Virus record (IMG/VR): IMGVR_UViG_3300006919_000266
Coordinates: 1-30,341 of that record
DNA length: 30,341 nucleotides
DNA from: a virus
Strand: one strand, 5' to 3'
Part shown: positions 1,313 through 16,970 of the stretch, one piece after another
How the letters are laid out: each line of letters opens with the position of its first letter
Numbering within the stretch: position 1 is the stretch's first letter
The notes under the pieces: model-generated
What the model was told of the DNA's origin: nothing
The model's input: the letters and a program-made list of their open reading frames with translations, nothing else
Database searches by the model: none
Made by a program: the position numbers and the translations under genes

Positions 1313-4300
1313 ATGGCATACGACCCACGGAAAGTTCTAGAGCTTGATGAGGCCGCTGGCGTGGAGCGTGGCTCCGAGGGCCTGCTCAAGCAGTTTGCCC
1401 TGGCTCCCCTGCGCGGCGCAGAGGGCCTTGTCAAGTCAACCTACAACTTGGTTGATTTTGTCGGCTTTGATGTCCTGCCGGATTACGACGAGCGATTCCT
1501 CGGGACTTCGAGCCATTGGGCACCCGGGCTTCTGGAGGGCATCACGCAGTTTGCTGTGCCGTACGGTGCCTTTTCCAAGGTGGCCGGCGTCGCTCGACTG
1601 ACTGGCATGAAGGCGTTGTCTCGTGGTGAGCGTCTTGCTCGCCGCACGAAGAACTACGCCCGGATGACTGCCGCAGGCGCTGCGGCTGACTTTGTCGCCT
1701 TTGACCCTAACGAGGGTCGCCTGAGCGATTTCCTGGTTCAGGTTCCGGGCATGGAGAATGCCCTGACGAGCTACCTCGCCACCGACATGGAGGATGGGGA
1801 GCTTGAGGGCCGCTTCAAAAACATGCTCGAGGGCGCGCTCGTGGGGCCAGTCTTCGACGCCGTTGTCTCCGTACTTGTCAAGGGTGCCAAGGCTAGTCGC
1901 CATGTCGTGAAGCAGCGCGCCACTGGCCGCAGCGACGAGAGCATTGCCAAGGACTTGAAGGGTGCCGAGTTCGATGCGAGCGATGACCTGTCGCAAATCC
2001 TCGAGGCGTATGCCGGCTACGACCACCGTCGCTGGATGCTCCTTAACACCCTGGCCAACACCATGGGCCTGGACCGCACCAAGATTATTGCCGACCTTGA
2101 CGGCAAGAGCTTTGAGGAACTGGCAGAGCAGGCTGGCAAAAGCGTAGATGAGTTTGCTGGTGCGGCCAAGGGCTACACCATTCCTGCCGGCACTGACCGC
2201 GTCATCCTTGGTGCCTTTAAGTCTGCCGATGTGACCACCGGCGTCCACGAGCTTGCGCACGCTGCGCGGCTCCTGCTCTTCAACAAAGACCTCCCGGCGG
2301 ATGCGCGCCTGGGCCTTGACGATGACCTGATTGACCTAGTCGGGCGCGAGATGGGGGCCGAGCTTGACGAGAATACTGGCAAATGGACCTACGGCACCGA
2401 CGCCGAGGAGAAGTTTGCCGAGACATTTGAGCGGTACATCGCCGAGGGCATTGCCCCCACGAAGGAGCTTGGCGGTGTCATGGGCACCCTGGCTTCGTTT
2501 GTGCGCGAGATTTACCGCGGCATCACGGGCGGCGCTATGTCTGCCGAGGTGTCCCCTGAAATGCGGGGCGTCTTCGACAAGCTTATGCAGCGGGGCGACA
2601 TCCCCGATGTGCGCAAGAACCCCAACCCGGAGCGACAGTCGCATGGTTCGGTCGGGCAAGTGGGTGCGCTCTCTGACCCGCTTTTCCAAATTGATGAAAA
2701 GTACCTAGAGGATGTGCCGGACGATGTCGAGGTGGACTACGACGGAAGGGTTGTCCAGAAGTTTACGGAAGCCTCTGGTGAAGAAACAAAGGCAAAGCTA
2801 AAGGCGCTGCGGGAATCCCACCCGAACCCACTAAAGTCGCCATCGGCATGGAAGAGGTTCATGGCCAAGGTGACCGGCAAGGCGCGAGTGCCTCGCCCCC
2901 CCGTGCAGCTTATGCGCGAGCTAAGAAATGGCCGCATGGCAGAGCGCCTTGCTCGCATGACGCCGCGCCAGATTGAGGCCGTAAACGCCGGCCTGGAGCT
3001 TACGAAGGAAGTAAAGGAAAACCTTAACACTCCAGAGGATTTGGCTCGCCTGTTTTACTGGACTAAGCTCAGTAACTCCGCAAGCCCCTTCCCTCAGGAG
3101 GCGGCATTTATGGACACCTTCGATGAGATTGTTCCATGGATTGAGGCTGCCAGAAGGGGCGAGTTTGACCTTGATAAGTACCTGGAGTGGGCAGACAAAA
3201 GGCTTCCCGCTGGCGGTGAGCGCCAGGGCGTTAGCGTAAAGAGCAATGTTAACTCCTTTGGCGAGGACTTCCTGAGGAAAGTAAGCGACGCCGCGCGCGA
3301 GGGGGAAGACCAGCTTGGGGCAATCTTTGAGTCTTGGACTAAGTCGGAGAGCACCGACGATGTAGTTATGGACTTCATGGGGATGTTTTCCGGCTATGGC
3401 TTTGACACTAAGCTGATTAACTTCGCCCGACTCGCCAGTGGTCATACCGACATGCTGGTCCTGGACCGCATTCAGCTTCGGCAGATATTCGGCCTAGAGG
3501 GCAACGACTACGAAAACTTCATGGAAGCCGCGAGCGGCGCCCAGGGCGTCGCGCTTTACGGGGCTATTCAGCGTGGCCTTCTTGAGGTTGGCGAGCAACT
3601 GTACAAAGACGCTGGCCGGATAGAGCCGTTTGAACTGGCCCGGTTCCACTGGGAAACCTGGATTGACAGCGCCGGCAGCGAGGTCGCGCACGAGACCCTT
3701 GGCCTGTTTATCGAGGGTTCTAGGAAGTACAAGGGTGCTATCAGGGAAACCCGCCCGAACAAGGCTGCGCATGGTTTCTCATACGGCCCTAAGGCTGGCG
3801 ACACCTGGATGCTCTTCCCGTTTCGCGGAGATGAGGCTGTCGCGCTGACGCGCGAAGAGTATAATGATGTTGCCAAGGCAATCACGAGTCCCTCAAACGG
3901 GGTCGTTCCCACTGGCTTCCAACTAGACGACTACAAAGATAAGAGTAGCTGGCACCATGACGGACAAGTTGACACCGAACAAATCGCAATCCTCGCAGCA
4001 ATCCGCTCAGGAAGGCTCCTCACAACAGAGGGGGATGAGGTCATTGTTAGAGACCTTGACCCAGATGAACGCGCCGACCTCGTCGGGGATTACCGACTCT
4101 GGCGAGATGCAGCCAAGGTACGGAGGCTCCATTCTCGACTTGCTGAAGCAGAAGGCTCATCTTACACCAGAGCAGCGCGCGTATCGGAGGATGATGTACG
4201 ACGAGCAAAACTAGGTAAGAAGGCGAAGATTAAGGCCGTCTATCATCCCACTGACCTCTTGCGGGAAGTCTTTGGGCAGTACGCCTCGTACCCGGACTGG

Positions 4301-12653: not shown

Positions 12654-13436
12654 TCAGTGTGTAAGGATGGCCCTTCGCGCCTTTGCAACGGCGCTTCGAT
12701 TGTGCCGCGCGTAATGGCGCAGCGTGGTCTGAATGTCCGCATGTCTCGCGAGCATGCGCACGGTCTCGAGGTCGGCACCCGCGGCGAGCAGGCTGGTGAT
12801 GAAGTAGCTGCGCAGGCAGTAGGGGGTGCGCGCCACGCCGCTCTGCTCGACCGGCAGGCCGGCAGCCTCGAGGTCACGGCGGAAGAAACGGTACAGCTTA
12901 TCAACAGCACCGGGCACCAGCGGGCAATGGTCGCGGATGAGCTTCGCTTCCTTGACGGTGAGTCCGATGGGGTCGGCCCTTCGCGCCTTTTGCAGCGCCG
13001 CCGGCAGGACCAGGGTCCACTCCCCACCCTGGCGCACGAGGTGGTCAGGCGTCACCCGGCTGGCCTCGACCGGGCGCAGGCCGGTCACCGCCAGGAGGTG
13101 CCATAGCGCGCGGCGCTGGGCCGGCACGGCCTCGCAGGCGAGAAGCTGCTGCACCTCTTCGCGGGTGATGGTGGCGCGGTCCTGAGAGGCCCGGGAGGCG
13201 GCAGGCGCTGAGACTGCCAGAAAGGGGTCTTCCTGGCCCGTTCGCCCTAGCCATGCTCCGTAGCACCGGAGACGGTTCCGCGCGTCTCTGACGGTCGTTT
13301 CTGTGGCTCTGGTGGCAAGCGAGGCGAGCGCGGCCTGGGGGTCAGGCAGGAGCCGGGTCAGAACCCGGCGCTGCTTGTCGATGTAGCCGGCGCTGCGGCC
13401 CTGCTCGCGGAGGTGGTCGAGGTATCGCTCGAGCAT
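12654..13436 (-). CDS. int: Tyrosine recombinase (integrase)
   Basis: This enzyme should join phage and host attachment sites by a covalent phosphotyrosine step. The 260 residues are short for a phage integrase and resemble the compact XerC/D-like layout: a SAM-like core-binding domain (about 1-75) and a catalytic domain from about 88. Visible catalytic residues are Arg121 (TGLRPVEA), Lys150, Arg209 in YCLR, His232 (LARHADIQTT) and nucleophile Tyr242 (HYARH). The usual His of the HxxR box is Tyr206. It starts within the stop of the preceding gene (TGATG), so it is translated as part of the minus-strand cluster. No excisionase and no attachment site could be identified nearby. Resolution of phage multimers is an alternative role. 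Confidence 0.92.
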   Translation of the reverse strand: MLERYLDHLREQGRSAGYIDKQRRVLTRLLPDPQAALASLATRATETTVRDARNRLRCYGAWLGRTGQEDPFLAVSAPAASRASQDRATITREEVQQLLACEAVPAQRRALWHLLAVTGLRPVEASRVTPDHLVRQGGEWTLVLPAALQKARRADPIGLTVKEAKLIRDHCPLVPGAVDKLYRFFRRDLEAAGLPVEQSGVARTPYCLRSYFITSLLAAGADLETVRMLARHADIQTTLRHYARHNRSAVAKARRAILTH

Positions 13437-13672
13437 CAGTCCAGGCGCGGCGGGTCGGTGACCATGTCCTGGTCGAGGTCGAGGTAGGCGTGCTGGCCTG
13501 CGCGGAGGTCAACGCAGTACAGGAGCCGGCGTCCAGTCTGGTCGGTGAAGGGGCGCTCGGTGCCCCCGCAGGCGGGGACAAGGCCAAGGCCCCAGACTCG
13601 AGCCTCCCAGGCGGCTAGGCTCTCGCCGGCACGGCGCGCGCCGGGAAGGTGGTCGGAGGTAGCGGTGGTCAT
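13436..13672 (-). CDS. Small hypothetical protein
   Basis: This 78-residue protein is unrecognised. It starts MTTATSDH, like its neighbours, and contains a Trp/Gly segment (AWEARVWGLGL), two cysteines and an acidic end. It has an ordinary SD: GGAG just after the previous gene's stop, two bases before the ATG, unlike the genes upstream. Its stop overlaps the integrase start, so it probably couples integrase translation to its own. A role as a small integrase partner is possible only by position. Confidence 0.6.
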   Translation of the reverse strand: MTTATSDHLPGARRAGESLAAWEARVWGLGLVPACGGTERPFTDQTGRRLLYCVDLRAGQHAYLDLDQDMVTDPPRLD

Positions 13673-13677
13673 AGCTC

Positions 13678-13980
13678 CTACTGGTACAGGGTCGGGAAGT
13701 GCTCGCGCAGCGAGGTGAACTCGCGGTCGAGGTCGAGGCGCAGGCGCTGCTGCTCGCCGTCGGAGTAGACCACGGTCAGGTCGAACTTGTCGTAGCCGGC
13801 ATGCTCGAGCTTGGACGCGGCAAGGCGCAGGAGGTCATCGAACTGGTGCAGGCTTTCGCGCACGAGGGTCCGGCCCAGGGGCCAGTACCGGTCGGTCGCG
13901 CGGCCTTCGGCGCGGGTCAGGATGTAGCCCTCGGCCCATACGGTGCGAGGCGCGTAGCAGTCGGTGGTGGAGTAGGTCAT
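13678..13980 (-). CDS. Small hypothetical protein with CA-rich leader
   Basis: This 100-residue protein is unrecognised: N-terminal MTYSTTDCYAPRTVW, a basic middle, helices around LHQFDDLLRLAASKLEHAG and a strand-like LTVVYSDGEQQRLRLDL. The ATG at 13980 is chosen because it follows the CAGAACC sequence shared with the other genes of this group. A longer frame to 14121 would read through the structured leader. There is no SD. The MTYS start is shared with the gene at 14670-14924, though the rest is not similar. Confidence 0.65.
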   Translation of the reverse strand: MTYSTTDCYAPRTVWAEGYILTRAEGRATDRYWPLGRTLVRESLHQFDDLLRLAASKLEHAGYDKFDLTVVYSDGEQQRLRLDLDREFTSLREHFPTLYQ

Positions 13981-14080
13981 GGTTCTGGTGGTGTGGTGTG
14001 GTGGGCAGGGTTGCCCGGCACCGGCAAGGCCCCACCCCGGTCGATGCCGAGGTGAGGCGGGGCGGTCGCCGGCGCGAGGC
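13981..14080 (-). promoter_or_regulatory. Structured CA-rich leader (copy a) with two hairpins
   Basis: Read on the minus strand, this interval between two genes has a 12-bp hairpin (GCCTCACCTCGG with CCGGGGTGGGGC, loop CATCGA; arms 14047-14058 and 14029-14040). A short GGGC/GCCC hairpin with loop AACCCT follows (14003-14016), then an unstructured CA-rich stretch ending CAGAACC directly before the ATG at 13980. No SD and no T-run are present. It is clearly related to the copy at 14925-15034. Confidence 0.6.
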
Positions 14081-14617
14081 CTAGCGTTCCTTGGCCATTG
14101 GCATGATGACGCCCCAGGCATCGTCGGTCTCGACGCGCAGCGGGTGGTGCGGGTCTTTCGGCAGGCGAAGCTTCACGGCGCGGCCCTTCACGCCGCCGAT
14201 GGCCTTCAGCAGCGAGATGAGCAGGTCGCCGTCGAGGTGGACCTCATGCTCGGCCTCCGGCAGCCCGTCGATAACGGCCTTGCACCGTGGGAACTCGCGC
14301 TTCACGAGCGAGCCGCTGACGGTGCCGGCCTTCGTGTGGCTGGTCGCCGAGTCCCCCTCGACCTCGATAGCAGCGCGCTGCGCACCTTTGGTCGCGGCCT
14401 GGACGACTTCGCGCGGAAGCACGGCCTCCTCGTGCGCGTCGCCGCCGTTCGCGCGGTCAGGGTACACCGCCAGGATGCGCCCGTTAGTCGCGTAGATGCT
14501 GCCATCACGCGCGGCGAGGTGCTGCATGGCATAGCGGGTCTCGTCCTTGCCGGCGGTGGCGGAGAGCGGGGACTCCTCTTTGCGGAAAGGAGAGATGAGA
14601 AGGTCGGTCTGGTTCAT
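14081..14617 (-). CDS. Short beta sliding-clamp-like protein
   Basis: This protein may act as a processivity clamp or clamp mimic in replication. The 178 residues show clamp-like features: DGSIYATNGRILAVYP at 39-53 (compare the ATDGHRLA segment of DnaN), VLPREVVQAA at 67-75, REFPRCKAVIDGLP at 107-120 (like the FPDY...P segment), and a C-terminal LRVETDDAWGVIMPM ending at 174, close to the MPM terminus of bacterial beta clamps. Bacterial clamps are about 366 residues with three repeats, so this is about half length and would need more subunits per ring, or does not form one. It has no SD; its leader is nearly free of G. It lies in a different operon from the helicase and SSB. Confidence 0.6.
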   Translation of the reverse strand: MNQTDLLISPFRKEESPLSATAGKDETRYAMQHLAARDGSIYATNGRILAVYPDRANGGDAHEEAVLPREVVQAATKGAQRAAIEVEGDSATSHTKAGTVSGSLVKREFPRCKAVIDGLPEAEHEVHLDGDLLISLLKAIGGVKGRAVKLRLPKDPHHPLRVETDDAWGVIMPMAKER

Positions 14618-14669
14618 GGTTCTGGGTTGTGGTTGGTGTGGGTTGGTGTGGGGGTTGAGGGGAGGAGGT
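14618..14669 (-). promoter_or_regulatory. CA-rich SD-less leader (copy b), no hairpin
   Basis: On the minus strand this 52-base gap is almost only C and A, with a little T, and ends CCCAGAACC directly before the ATG at 14617. It has no SD and no hairpin. It shares the CAGAACC end with the other leaders of the cluster. Confidence 0.55.
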
Positions 14670-14924
14670 CTAGAACAACGATTGAGCGGCTCTGACGCCA
14701 TCCCAGTAGTCGGAGGCGTACTCGTGGTCGGCGTCGATGTGTGAGTCAGTTTGCCCGTCCAGGGCATCTGCCATCCCGCGGATGCACCAGCCTGCCTCGA
14801 CCACGCCCTCGTCGTTGAGGCGGTCGGACAAAGCGTGAAGGGTGTCTGCGGCTTGGGTGAAGGCGTCGGTGGTGGCGGGGCTTAGTCCGCGCAAGTACTT
14901 GATGACGGCCATGGAGTAGGTCAT
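14670..14924 (-). CDS. Small hypothetical helical protein
   Basis: This 84-residue protein is unrecognised. After MTYSMAVIKYLRGL it has amphipathic helices (FTQAADTLHALSDRLNDEG, GWCIRGMADAL) and an acidic end (DSHIDADHEYASDYWDG). It has no membrane segment. The start follows the shared CAGAACC leader sequence. Codons two to four (ACC TAC TCC) match those of the gene at 13678-13980, which points to a shared initiation region rather than shared function. Confidence 0.6.
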   Translation of the reverse strand: MTYSMAVIKYLRGLSPATTDAFTQAADTLHALSDRLNDEGVVEAGWCIRGMADALDGQTDSHIDADHEYASDYWDGVRAAQSLF

Positions 14925-15034
14925 GGTTCTGTCTGGGTGGTGGTGGTGTGGTGTGTGGTGGGGCGGTGTTGCCCGTCACCGCCAAGGCCCCAGGCAGCTT
15001 GAGGCTACCTGAGGCGGGGCGGTGGTGGTGGTGA
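14925..15034 (-). promoter_or_regulatory. Structured CA-rich leader (copy c) with two hairpins
   Basis: On the minus strand an 11-bp hairpin (GCCTCAGGTAG with CTGCCTGGGGC, arms 15005-15015 and 14987-14997, loop CCTCAAG) is extended by CCGCC/GGCGG arms outside a small internal loop. A second GGGC/GCCC hairpin with loop AACACC follows (14961-14974). CA-rich sequence then runs to CAGAACC before the ATG at 14924. No SD and no T-run. The stem sequence differs from copy a while pairing is kept. Confidence 0.6.
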
Positions 15035-15253
15035 TTAGCTTCCGGGCAATCCGTTGTTGCGCCAGTGGTCGCGGAGCACGGCCCTCAGGGTGGCCCACCG
15101 GGCGGAGCTTTGGCGCCAGTGGTCTCGGCCGGCGGCGGCAAGCTCGGCTTCCTTGCGGCTGAGTTTCCGGGGGCTAGGCTCGATGGTGCGACGCACGGCG
15201 CGGTGGAACTCAGCAGCGGCTTCCTTAAGGTCGGAGGTGGTGGTGGTGGTCAT
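15035..15253 (-). CDS. Small basic hypothetical protein
   Basis: This 72-residue protein is unrecognised. It starts MTTTTTSDLKEAAAEF and is basic and helical (RRTIEPSPRKLSRKEAEL, GRDHWRQSSARWATLRAVLRDHWRNN) with three Trp. It could bind nucleic acid or act as an adaptor, but nothing in the sequence decides this. The ATG follows a CA-rich leader, and the first codons are themselves a run of ACC, so the CA-rich tract continues into the coding sequence. Confidence 0.6.
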   Translation of the reverse strand: MTTTTTSDLKEAAAEFHRAVRRTIEPSPRKLSRKEAELAAAGRDHWRQSSARWATLRAVLRDHWRNNGLPGS

Positions 15254-15304
15254 GGTTGTTTCTGGGTGGTGTGGTGGTGGGGGGCCGAAGCCCCCCGGTG
15301 GTAA
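15254..15304 (-). promoter_or_regulatory. CA-rich leader (copy d) with UUCG-capped G/C hairpin
   Basis: On the minus strand GGGGGGC-TTCG-GCCCCCC (15279-15296) forms a perfect 7-bp stem with a UUCG tetraloop. CA-rich sequence and ACAACC follow before the ATG at 15253. The stem lies three codon-lengths or less after the previous stop. Without a T-run it is unlikely to be a simple terminator. Confidence 0.6.
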
Positions 15305-15568
15305 TTAGCCGATGAGGTCCATCAGTTCCTCGTAAGACTCCATGAGTTCCTCGCGGATGCGCTCGACTTCTTCGATGGCGTGGTTCAGCTCGTCGGCGCG
15401 GTCCTGGAGTTGCTCGACCTCATGCTCGGAGAGGTCTTGCTCAGCGATGTGCTGGACCTCGGCGGCAGCCTCGAGGACGAGGAGTTCGCCGACCTTGTCG
15501 AAGCCTTCCTTGATGAGGTCGAGGTCGATGCTGTCGAGGAGCGGGTGGTTGTCGGTGGTGGTGGTCAT
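15305..15568 (-). CDS. Small acidic coiled-coil protein
   Basis: This 87-residue protein is unrecognised. It starts MTTTTDNHPLLD and is strongly acidic and helical, with a probable coiled coil from about 40 to the end (EQLQDRADELNHAIEEVERI and following). The charge could mimic DNA or fit a regulatory or inhibitor protein, but this is only a guess. It is the first gene after a promoter-like element inside the cluster; its leader carries a 5'-terminal hairpin and the CA-rich, SD-less tract. Confidence 0.65.
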   Translation of the reverse strand: MTTTTDNHPLLDSIDLDLIKEGFDKVGELLVLEAAAEVQHIAEQDLSEHEVEQLQDRADELNHAIEEVERIREELMESYEELMDLIG

Positions 15569-15742
15569 GTTTCTGTTCTGGTTCTGGGTGGTGGTGGTTG
15601 TGGCGAGCGGTGTTGCTCGACCCTTGAAAGCATACAGATAACATCGGGTGGCGCAAGGCCCATTTGACCACTTTTTCCCGGCAGGCCCCTCCTGGTCGCC
15701 GTAAGTGCCGCTGGGACTGCGGCTTAGGAAAATAAAAAAAGT
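15569..15742 (-). promoter_or_regulatory. Internal promoter and hairpin-headed leader (copy e)
   Basis: On the minus strand TTGCGC (15656-15651), a 16-base spacer and TATGCT (15634-15629) form a sigma70-like promoter with a start near 15622. The RNA would then begin almost at a CGAGC/GCTCG hairpin (15604-15619) whose loop AACACC matches copy c, followed by a CA-rich tract to the ATG at 15568. Between this promoter and the stop of the upstream gene are a T-rich stretch directly after that stop and a GCCGC/GCGGC hairpin; I see no gene there. Confidence 0.5.
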
Positions 15743-16351
15743 CTACAGAAAGCCCATCCTGATGGCCTCGCGGACCCTGCGCCGCGCTCTGCGCTCGACA
15801 TCAAGCAGGAACGGCTCGATGGCCTTCTCGCATCGGACAATGGCCCCCGTGATGCACTCAATGGTGTCCCTGCACCTCAACGGTCGCCCGTCCCCTGCAC
15901 CCTCTCGCCGGCGCAGCCAGTGCGCGATGCCTGCTCTCCAGGCTCGCATGCTGACCACCTTCGCCCTGCCCTCGTTGCAGTAGTTGCGACCGGCTACGGC
16001 TGCGCGGCCTGCGGCTAGGCGGCGCGTGATTGACCGATGGACATTGGACTTCGAGAACGCCTTCACGATAGCGAAGGATGCGCGGCGCTGTCTCGGGCGC
16101 TGCAGTTCCTCGACCACGATGTCGCCGGCCTCGCAGGTCACGAGGGCATGCGCCCGGTGGCAGGCATCGCGGAACGCCGGGTCATTGAACCGCCACCGCT
16201 GTATCTGGCGCTGCCAACTGCCGGCGTCGGCTAGTAGGTGCGGCTCGCTCAGGCCGGCCTCGCCATAGATGGTCCGCTGCCTGCGACACGGGTAGCACCA
16301 CCGCCGGCTGCACCGCACCCCGCAGTGGTCGCAGTACCGGTCACGCTTCAT
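15743..16351 (-). CDS. Zinc-finger protein of unknown function
   Basis: This 202-residue protein begins MKRDRYCDHCGVRCSRRWCY and has CDHC...CYPC near residues 7-24, a probable zinc finger. A long Arg-rich remainder follows (RRLAAGRAAVAGRNY, RRARRRVREAIRMGFL), so it is very basic and probably binds nucleic acid. The ATG at 16351, eleven bases inside the end of the upstream gene, is preferred over the start at 16426, which would overlap that gene deeply. By position after a TerS-like gene it could be an endonuclease or packaging helper, but no nuclease motif is visible. Confidence 0.6.
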   Translation of the reverse strand: MKRDRYCDHCGVRCSRRWCYPCRRQRTIYGEAGLSEPHLLADAGSWQRQIQRWRFNDPAFRDACHRAHALVTCEAGDIVVEELQRPRQRRASFAIVKAFSKSNVHRSITRRLAAGRAAVAGRNYCNEGRAKVVSMRAWRAGIAHWLRRREGAGDGRPLRCRDTIECITGAIVRCEKAIEPFLLDVERRARRRVREAIRMGFL

Positions 16352-16643
16352 CGGCACCGGCGCGCTCGAGGTAGGCCCCGGTCGGCCCCTCGCGAAGCTT
16401 GGCCTTGGCTTCCTCGGGTAGGTCATCCCACCAGCTCGAGCTGGTCTCGGCGGACTCCCTCAGGCTCGCAGTGGACGCGGCCTGCACGCCACCGGCGCGG
16501 AGCATGCCCACGGCTGTCCCGATGAGGCTAGCGGTGGCCTCGCCGGTCTCGAGCGCCTGCCGCAGCTGCTGGCAGAGGAGGGACAGGGTCAGGGCCTCGA
16601 GTTCCCGGTAGCCCTCGTCGGTGGTGTTATCTCGGCTGGTCAT
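16341..16643 (-). CDS. Candidate terminase small subunit (T7 gp18-like)
   Basis: TerS recognises phage DNA and presents it to the large subunit. This 100-residue protein has the layout of short T7-like small terminases: an acidic N-terminus, a helix LTLSLLCQQLRQALETGEAT, then SLIGTAVGMLRAGGV in the place of the usual ADL..AR.FL...GI motif, and an acidic end with WWDDLPEEAK. The match is by pattern only. It would be the first gene of the minus-strand cluster and is encoded opposite to the large subunit, which is unusual. There is no SD; a pyrimidine-rich leader precedes ATGACC. A helical regulatory protein is the alternative. Confidence 0.45.
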   Translation of the reverse strand: MTSRDNTTDEGYRELEALTLSLLCQQLRQALETGEATASLIGTAVGMLRAGGVQAASTASLRESAETSSSWWDDLPEEAKAKLREGPTGAYLERAGADEA

Positions 16644-16958
16644 AGGTGGAAGGGTACCTCATACTACGCGTCCTCGCCTCGAGGTGGCCGGCCCCGGCCC
16701 CGGCCTCGAGCGGCGCGCAGGCGAGCGGTGGCGGGACATACATACATGTCCAGACAGGCATGCGGTGCGCGTAACCCCCGGCCCCGGCGTGGCTTGCGTC
16801 GAATCCAGGTGGCAGGCTCGAGGTCGAAGGCACCCCCCACCCCCCTTGCGTGTGCGCGCGCGCGCGTGATGGATAGTGAGGCCCCCCAAGGGGGGGGATG
16901 GCCGCTCGCGACCACGAATATATGCCCCTCTACACACCCACCCCGAAAACCATTTTGG
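16644..16958. other. GC-rich divergent intergenic region
   Basis: No gene is supported here. It holds repeated CGGCCCC blocks near 16689-16705, an inverted repeat at 16734-16751, long C and G runs, and a 22-base alternating pyrimidine-purine tract (16847-16868) that could adopt Z-DNA. A CCCCC/GGGGG palindrome lies at about 16884-16899. It separates the minus-strand cluster from the replication operon, so operators, and possibly the attachment site or genome end, may lie here. A weak TAGTAT element close to the TerS-like start may be its promoter. Confidence 0.5.
16734..16751. promoter_or_regulatory. Candidate operator (6-6-6 inverted repeat)
   Basis: GGACAT and ATGTCC flank a six-base spacer, ACATAC. 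An 18-bp dyad between two divergent operons fits a repressor site, but it occurs once and no binding protein is tied to it. Confidence 0.3.
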
Positions 16959-16964
16959 TATACT
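16956..16964 (+). promoter_or_regulatory. Extended -10 promoter for a short RNA or leader
   Basis: TGGTATACT is a complete TGn plus TATACT extended -10 element in the most AT-rich part of the region. No -35 is evident. Start of transcription is expected near 16971. The first structure downstream is a strong terminator rather than a gene. Confidence 0.5.
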
Positions 16965-16970
16965 CCCTCC

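Follow-up and report, generated by a model that had tools for sequence, protein, structure and literature searches.

Repeated A/C-rich leaders without Shine-Dalgarno sequences before small genes of a T7-like phage and its relatives

We analysed the complete, linear 30,341-bp IMG/VR virus record IMGVR_UViG_3300006919_000266 (hereafter the window), in which five consecutive small genes on the minus strand, here called E, D, C, B and A in leftward order, start at 15568, 15253, 14924, 14617 and 13980 behind leaders that lack a Shine-Dalgarno (SD) sequence, consist almost entirely of A and C and mostly carry hairpins. This leader feature is real, non-random and conserved in a small group of phages, and the role of its hairpins is probably played out at messenger RNA (mRNA) ends. 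The absence of SD pairing, the A/C composition, the hairpins, the compensatory changes in their stems and the recurrence of the leaders before unrelated genes in two relatives were all observed directly. On balance we favour, by comparison of these sequences, a reading in which each small gene would have its own self-contained, SD-independent, Kozak-like expression leader, with a hairpin that acts mainly on the mRNA.

A/C-rich starts in the window and its relatives

An initial annotation of the window had described the five starts as SD-less, preceded by a CA-rich stretch that runs up to the ATG and continued by A/C-rich first codons, and all of this proved correct. The anti-SD duplex energy was +0.2 kcal/mol at each start, that is, no pairing, and the leaders end directly before the ATG in CAGAACC (13980, 14617 and 14924), ACAACC (15253) or GAAAC (15568). 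The fraction of A+C in the 25 nucleotides (nt) upstream was 0.88-0.96 at these starts and 0.28-0.80 at the other 26 starts examined, and codons 2-6 of the five genes were likewise rich in A and C (0.84 vs 0.61, p=0.003). A scan of every ATG or GTG with an open reading frame of at least 40 amino acids in the 30 kb record, with a cut-off of A+C >=0.88, returned exactly five starts, all of them SD-less and in five consecutive genes; 60 dinucleotide shuffles gave a mean of 0.03 such starts and a maximum of 1. The genes nearby that start at 13672 and 12335 show SD-like pairing (-6.5 and -11.4). The reading frames of 13980 and 14617 open further upstream, to earlier ATGs; the 13980 leader aligns with the non-coding 14924 leader, and length differences between the two break the frame.

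The terminase, portal, capsid and tail genes of the record are of the T7-like type, with the best annotated terminases 35-40% identical, and the phage is probably temperate, since it carries a tyrosine integrase gene (12654-13436, in the same operon as the A/C leaders) and a DnaB-type helicase gene. A DNA search of INPHARED with the record gave no match. The early region is present in the relatives G001 (L002; terminase 82% identity, GC content 39%) and G002 (L003/L009; 67% identity, GC content 51%), and a third relative, G003 (59% identity), is without it. When GTDB contigs were searched by terminase and portal, relatives were found only at 38-47% portal identity (Pseudomonas, Rhizobium and others), and these had no comparable leader sets. 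The short viral contigs L012 and L013, with portal identities to the window of 100% and 89%, are near relatives from other samples.

The same A/C scan found an A-rich leader in G001 (L002:14505) and, in G002, the leaders L003:17006, L003:16651 and L009:1922, to which L009:2240 and L009:510 (A+C 0.80 and 0.84) were added by reading the surroundings. This gave 11 leaders, five from the window, one from G001 and five from G002; a further G002 scan match, L009:12360, before a gene adjoining the portal, was left out. No SD is present at any of the 11 (duplex energy 0.1-1.8 or about 0). Every start reads ATGA and is preceded by A at -3; A stands at -4 in 10/11 and at -6 in 9/11, and C at -12 in seven and at -13 in nine of them. 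Since the leader repeats are spelled differently among the phages (CACC, AAAAT and AACCC), what the leaders have in common is composition and the positions of A, not sequence.

The proteins encoded behind the leaders show no relationship to one another or to the proteins of the relatives: no homologues of genes A-E were found in G001 or G002, none of gene B in INPHARED, and none of genes B and C in viral contigs. Other G001 and G002 genes nearby have strong SDs (-6.6 to -13.3), and the G002 leaders L009:845, L009:1072 and L003:16466 are A/C-rich and of the AACCC type with a GGAG core inserted, apparently SD-plus versions of the same leader. In our reading of these two observations the host reads SDs, and the SD would be an optional addition to an A/C leader. 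Among wider T7-like relatives, a scan of 80 portal loci and 16 genome loci found only sporadic A/C-rich starts (the hairpins there were unchecked), and a DNA pattern of the G002 leader matched G002 only; as far as sampled, the feature belongs to a small phage group. The initial annotation had named related phages without both pairing and CA tracts as counter-evidence; these were looked for, and both relatives turned out to have pairing and a tract, but the tract of G001 is A-rich, not CA-rich.

Hairpins, promoter-like sequences and operon layout

Folding recovered the hairpins that had been described in four of the five leaders (15568, 15253, 14924 and 13980), together with the mini-hairpin said to recur three times, whose loops are AACACC, AACACC and AACCCT in the leaders of 15568, 14924 and 13980. 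The 14617 leader has no hairpin, with a minimum free energy (MFE) of 0. The 14924 (gene C) and 13980 (gene A) leaders share homology that begins at the hairpin and includes the first 13 nt of the gene (ATGACCTACTCCA), beyond which they diverge; the proteins of genes A and C have no similarity to each other. In the homologous register each of the two long hairpins has a 12-bp stem without a mismatch. The two stems differ from each other at four positions in each arm, every difference being compensated: 12/12 pairs hold in both leaders, and mixed arms keep eight. The simulated chance of full compensation, given four random changes in the 3' arm, was 4e-5 to 1.5e-4. These compensatory differences therefore support selection on a hairpin, in RNA or in DNA. 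The earlier description of two homologous leaders with stems that differ in sequence and stay fully paired thus stands for this 12-bp stem, but not for the fold predicted to be most stable at 13980, which uses another register.

The first leader in each of the three phages is preceded by a TTGC-N-TA promoter-like pair, with the same position and TTGC box in G001 and G002. In the window this is the predicted promoter P (15629..15656, minus strand; TTGCGC, a 16-nt spacer and TATGCT), read from the sequence, which would drive the leftward operon. In G002 a single promoter-like sequence, TTGCAATYGKCTMCMGMTGACATAARCTT, occurs twice in one leftward operon (before L009:2240 and L003:17006), each copy being followed by a different hairpin and then by an A/C leader. 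In 4/4 promoter-proximal leaders the hairpin starts 5-12 nt past the -10 box and roughly 0-6 nt from where +1 is predicted; the hairpin strength percentiles relative to 34-nt windows of the same sequence were 0.13, 0.034, 0.001 and 0.015 (best of nine offsets each). By analogy, hairpins at predicted 5' ends suggest ompA-like mRNA protection. The start of gene E lies about 55 nt past the predicted +1, which does not fit a leaderless mRNA with CA repeats.

The features of the stretch 13678-15656 all lie on the minus strand. About 3-6 nt past the +1 predicted for P stands mini-hairpin 1 (CGAGC-AACACC-GCTCG, 15604..15619), followed by the leader of gene E (15569..15603; A+C 0.88, unpaired 0.87 when folded from +1) and gene E itself (15305..15568; 87 amino acids, acidic). 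Gene D (15035..15253; 72 amino acids, basic) is preceded by the hairpin GGGGGGC-TTCG-GCCCCCC (15279..15296; MFE -17.7, z -2.8) and a leader with A+C 0.96 (15254..15278); at the place of this hairpin G002 has GGGGGGC-TTTC-GCCCCCC, before another gene. Upstream of gene C (14670..14924; 84 amino acids) come a long two-part hairpin (14977..15024), with a 7-bp lower stem, a 2x3 internal loop and a 12-bp upper stem, which has the shape of a T7-type RNase III signal (MFE -44.9, z -6.7 when folded with the leader), then mini-hairpin 2 (GGGC-AACACC-GCCC, 14961..14974) and the leader (14925..14960; A+C 0.92). The leader of gene B, without hairpin, occupies 14618..14669 (A+C 0.96), and gene B (14081..14617; 178 amino acids) matches PHROG 3007, labelled RusA-like resolvase, at E 2.9e-12. 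The long two-part hairpin before gene A (14018..14075; MFE -50.5, z -3.5 when folded with the leader) has a 10-bp lower stem and an upper stem in two alternative registers. It is followed by mini-hairpin 3 (GGGC-AACCCT-GCCC, alternatively GGGCA-ACCC-TGCCC, 14003..14016), the leader (13981..14002; A+C 0.96) and gene A (13678..13980; 100 amino acids), whose first 13 nt are identical to those of gene C and whose protein is different. Genes A, C, D and E gave no significant family match.

By eye, the gene B sequence looks rather like a sliding-clamp fragment despite its PHROG match; the alignment-free fold was unusable (predicted local distance difference test score, pLDDT, 35). A CCTCC, the anti-SD core, lies within 14660-14669 (minus strand), at the start of the gene B leader directly past the gene C stop, probably by chance. 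Upstream of the operon, a zinc-finger-like gene (CxxC...CxxC; 15743-16350, minus strand) has a relative upstream of the promoter in G001 and weaker relatives beside the terminase gene in L003 and L004, so that it changes places. Further on, a conserved non-coding element at 16915-16967 (minus strand; GTATACCAAAATGGTTTTCGGGG...AGAGGGG) lies between a divergent small gene (16341-16643) and a replication gene; its core, TATACCAAAATTGGTTTTTGGGG...AAAGGGGG, is present in both relatives (L002 ~15920-15965 and L009 ~2950-3003), and it is possibly an operator, a promoter or a packaging/attachment site.

Proposed mechanism and rival explanations

Genes A-D, folded in context, had a predicted openness of the start (-20 to +15) of 0.65-0.93, and gene E, folded from the predicted +1, one of 0.87 (folding gene E with the untranscribed upstream DNA gave a misleading 0.29); the mean for other starts was 0.42. 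SD-independent initiation at the A/C leaders is plausible given these predicted open starts, the A-3 shared by 11/11 leaders and the A-6 of 9/11, and the published enhancers: in E. coli and F. johnsoniae initiation is increased by A-3 and A-6 (PMC6847099), and translation is enhanced by ACA motifs (PMC3879156) and by CA repeats placed after the start codon (PMC9031893). In the mechanism that we propose, the 25-35 nt before the start, nearly free of G and U, would not pair with themselves and would stay open to the 30S subunit, and A-3, mostly A-6 and the A/C-rich first codons would let the ribosome start without SD pairing, in a Kozak-like manner. The promoter-proximal hairpin, by the mRNA 5' end, would hinder 5'-end-dependent decay, as in ompA. 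The long hairpins at 14977-15024 and 14018-14075 may be RNase III-like processing signals that cut the operon RNA, and each cut would give the downstream message a new 5' end with a mini-hairpin close by, matching the gene E transcript that we infer from P. The leader would be kept while the genes behind it are replaced, so that the operon would offer a place for early genes of an accessory kind. This scheme predicts the transcript starts, the protection of 5' ends, the processing and the translation from the five ATGs.

Several results weigh against parts of it. In-silico removal of the hairpins shifts start openness by <=0.06, so that in these models A/C composition, not the hairpin, keeps the start open; an insulating or start-opening role of the hairpin accordingly gained no support, and one leader has no hairpin at all. 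Because deletion alters accessibility so little and the hairpin stands at the predicted +1 in 4/4 cases, protection of mRNA 5' ends or processing is the more likely role for the hairpins. The reusable translation module of the initial annotation therefore survives in part: the same leader type stands before unrelated genes in two relatives, and the 14924 and 13980 leaders are homologous and their proteins are not, but a hairpin serving translation is unsupported by folding. Moreover, the fold predicted to have minimum energy at 13980 uses a longer register that is shifted, which leaves the homologous register a probability of only ~0.08-0.19; the gene B leader and L009:510 have no clear hairpin, that of L009:1922 is weak, and RNase III would need longer hairpins than those of 15253 and of G002. 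P matches the consensus weakly and was missed by the consensus promoter scan. Because the leaders of a given phage are in part homologous to one another, 11/11 should not be read as 11 independent events. Finally, upstream A -> C changes abolished translation at four A-rich starts in E. coli reporters (PMC7043885), and a C-rich leader therefore need not be strong.

It is also possible, and in our view unlikely, that the whole forms a phage-borne cartridge with a promoter, a protective hairpin, an A/C leader that starts translation without an SD and, between the genes, RNase III-type cutters that free separate small messages with mini-hairpin caps, its architecture being conserved, its sequence not, and its accessory genes turning over.

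Other explanations do without a role in initiation, or reverse it. The region could instead carry transcription signals, with boxB-like antitermination hairpins and C-rich, G-poor Rho loading sites giving lambda-N-like read-through control of the early operon, which would account for three mini-hairpins alike in shape and loop directly before C-rich, G-poor RNA and for a small basic protein (gene D) in the same operon. We think this improbable: no boxA-like site (<=2 mismatches) lies within 100 nt of the mini-hairpins, boxA-like sites are no commoner than in shuffles, and there is no U-tract terminator on this strand in the region. The tract also extends over the start codon and the codons next to it, always with A at -3, the A-rich G001 leader is not a Rho site, and the hairpin loops of G002 differ. 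Just as improbable are neutral simple repeats in untranslated gaps, with spent terminators as hairpins and one recent duplication behind the 14924/13980 similarity. The CACC, AAAAT and AACCC runs are indeed microsatellite-like, the two long-hairpin leaders are clearly a duplication and one leader lacks a hairpin, but three phages whose repeats differ have arrived at one layout of A/C only, A-3 and no SD, placed identically with respect to the start, the stem differences are compensatory, and the layout is absent from ~90 other T7-like contigs, bar sporadic A/C-rich starts where hairpins were unchecked.

We give still less credence to a regulated off-switch, in which an Hfq-like protein (on A-rich tracts) or a GcvB-like small RNA (sRNA) would repress translation at the unstructured A/C tract. 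Such tracts are typical sRNA targets, GcvB silences genes via ACA/CA-rich enhancers (PMC3879156) and the G001 leader is A-rich; the window leaders, however, contain much C and few A-R-N triplets, neither an sRNA nor an Hfq gene was noticed, and no Rfam family reached the gathering score. Least probable of all are sites of DNA-level recombination for small-gene exchange, GT-rich/Chi-like on the other strand or integron-like hairpins, with no RNA role. Unrelated genes behind the leaders and a tyrosine integrase gene in the same operon would fit, but there is no Chi sequence near the leaders and no sign of an attC-like core, the leader of G001 is rich in A/T, and tract and hairpin always stand directly before an ATG with A-3.

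If the SD-independent leader reading is true, these phages hold a natural, composition-based initiation signal that is accepted by a host with normal SD-reading ribosomes, and the leaders would flag, in temperate T7-like phages, a slot that takes up accessory early genes and can be searched for by architecture. Short SD-free expression leaders would become possible, and the roles of upstream A and C could be tested on natural, repeated examples.

Comparison with known systems

The SAS/ESAS elements of cluster K mycobacteriophages (Pope et al. 2011, PMC3203893) are repeated at translation starts, about half with a 17-bp imperfect inverted repeat upstream, and a role in translation initiation was suggested for them. 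The leaders described here resemble them as repeated elements at the starts of a subset of non-structural genes in a probably temperate phage. However, SAS is a fixed 13-bp sequence, GGGATAGGAGCCC, whereas only A/C composition and A-3 are fixed here, with no SD; a search for the 13-bp sequence gave no match with <=2 mismatches and two with three, fewer than chance. Inverted repeats of 5-22 bp stand upstream of most leaders, with other sequences and lengths than the 17-bp repeats.

The Kozak-like SD-independent regions of Bacteroidetes and E. coli (Baez 2019, PMC6847099; Saito 2020, PMC7043885) share the lack of an SD, the low structure, A-3 and A-6, but they are A-rich and genome-wide. The leaders here are A/C-rich, joined to hairpins and confined to one operon in phages whose other genes often have an SD, and in place of the A at -12/-13 of the F. 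johnsoniae regions they have mostly C at both positions. CA-repeat and ACA enhancers of enteric bacteria (PMC9031893, PMC3879156) likewise place CA/ACA-rich sequence near the start, but on leaderless mRNAs or together with an SD, unlike the 22-52 nt leaders that stand alone here.

As in mRNA-stabilising 5' stem-loops (ompA and papA, as cited in PMC3997798), a hairpin stands beside the 5' end, here a predicted one, and the initiation region after it is single-stranded; ompA, however, has an SD, and here the transcript ends are predicted and the element is repeated inside the operon. The RNase III signals of T7 early mRNA (PMC4858673) are similar as intergenic two-part hairpins with an internal loop, in a phage with T7-like virion genes. 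Unlike in T7, such ~20-bp hairpins, here candidate RNase III sites, stand between genes at two leaders only, those of genes C and A (19 and ~20-23 bp) and not B, D or E, and the phage carries an integrase and DnaB, with no T7-type RNA polymerase gene seen. Each ingredient of these leaders is thus already known from other systems; what is new is their repeated combination in this phage group.

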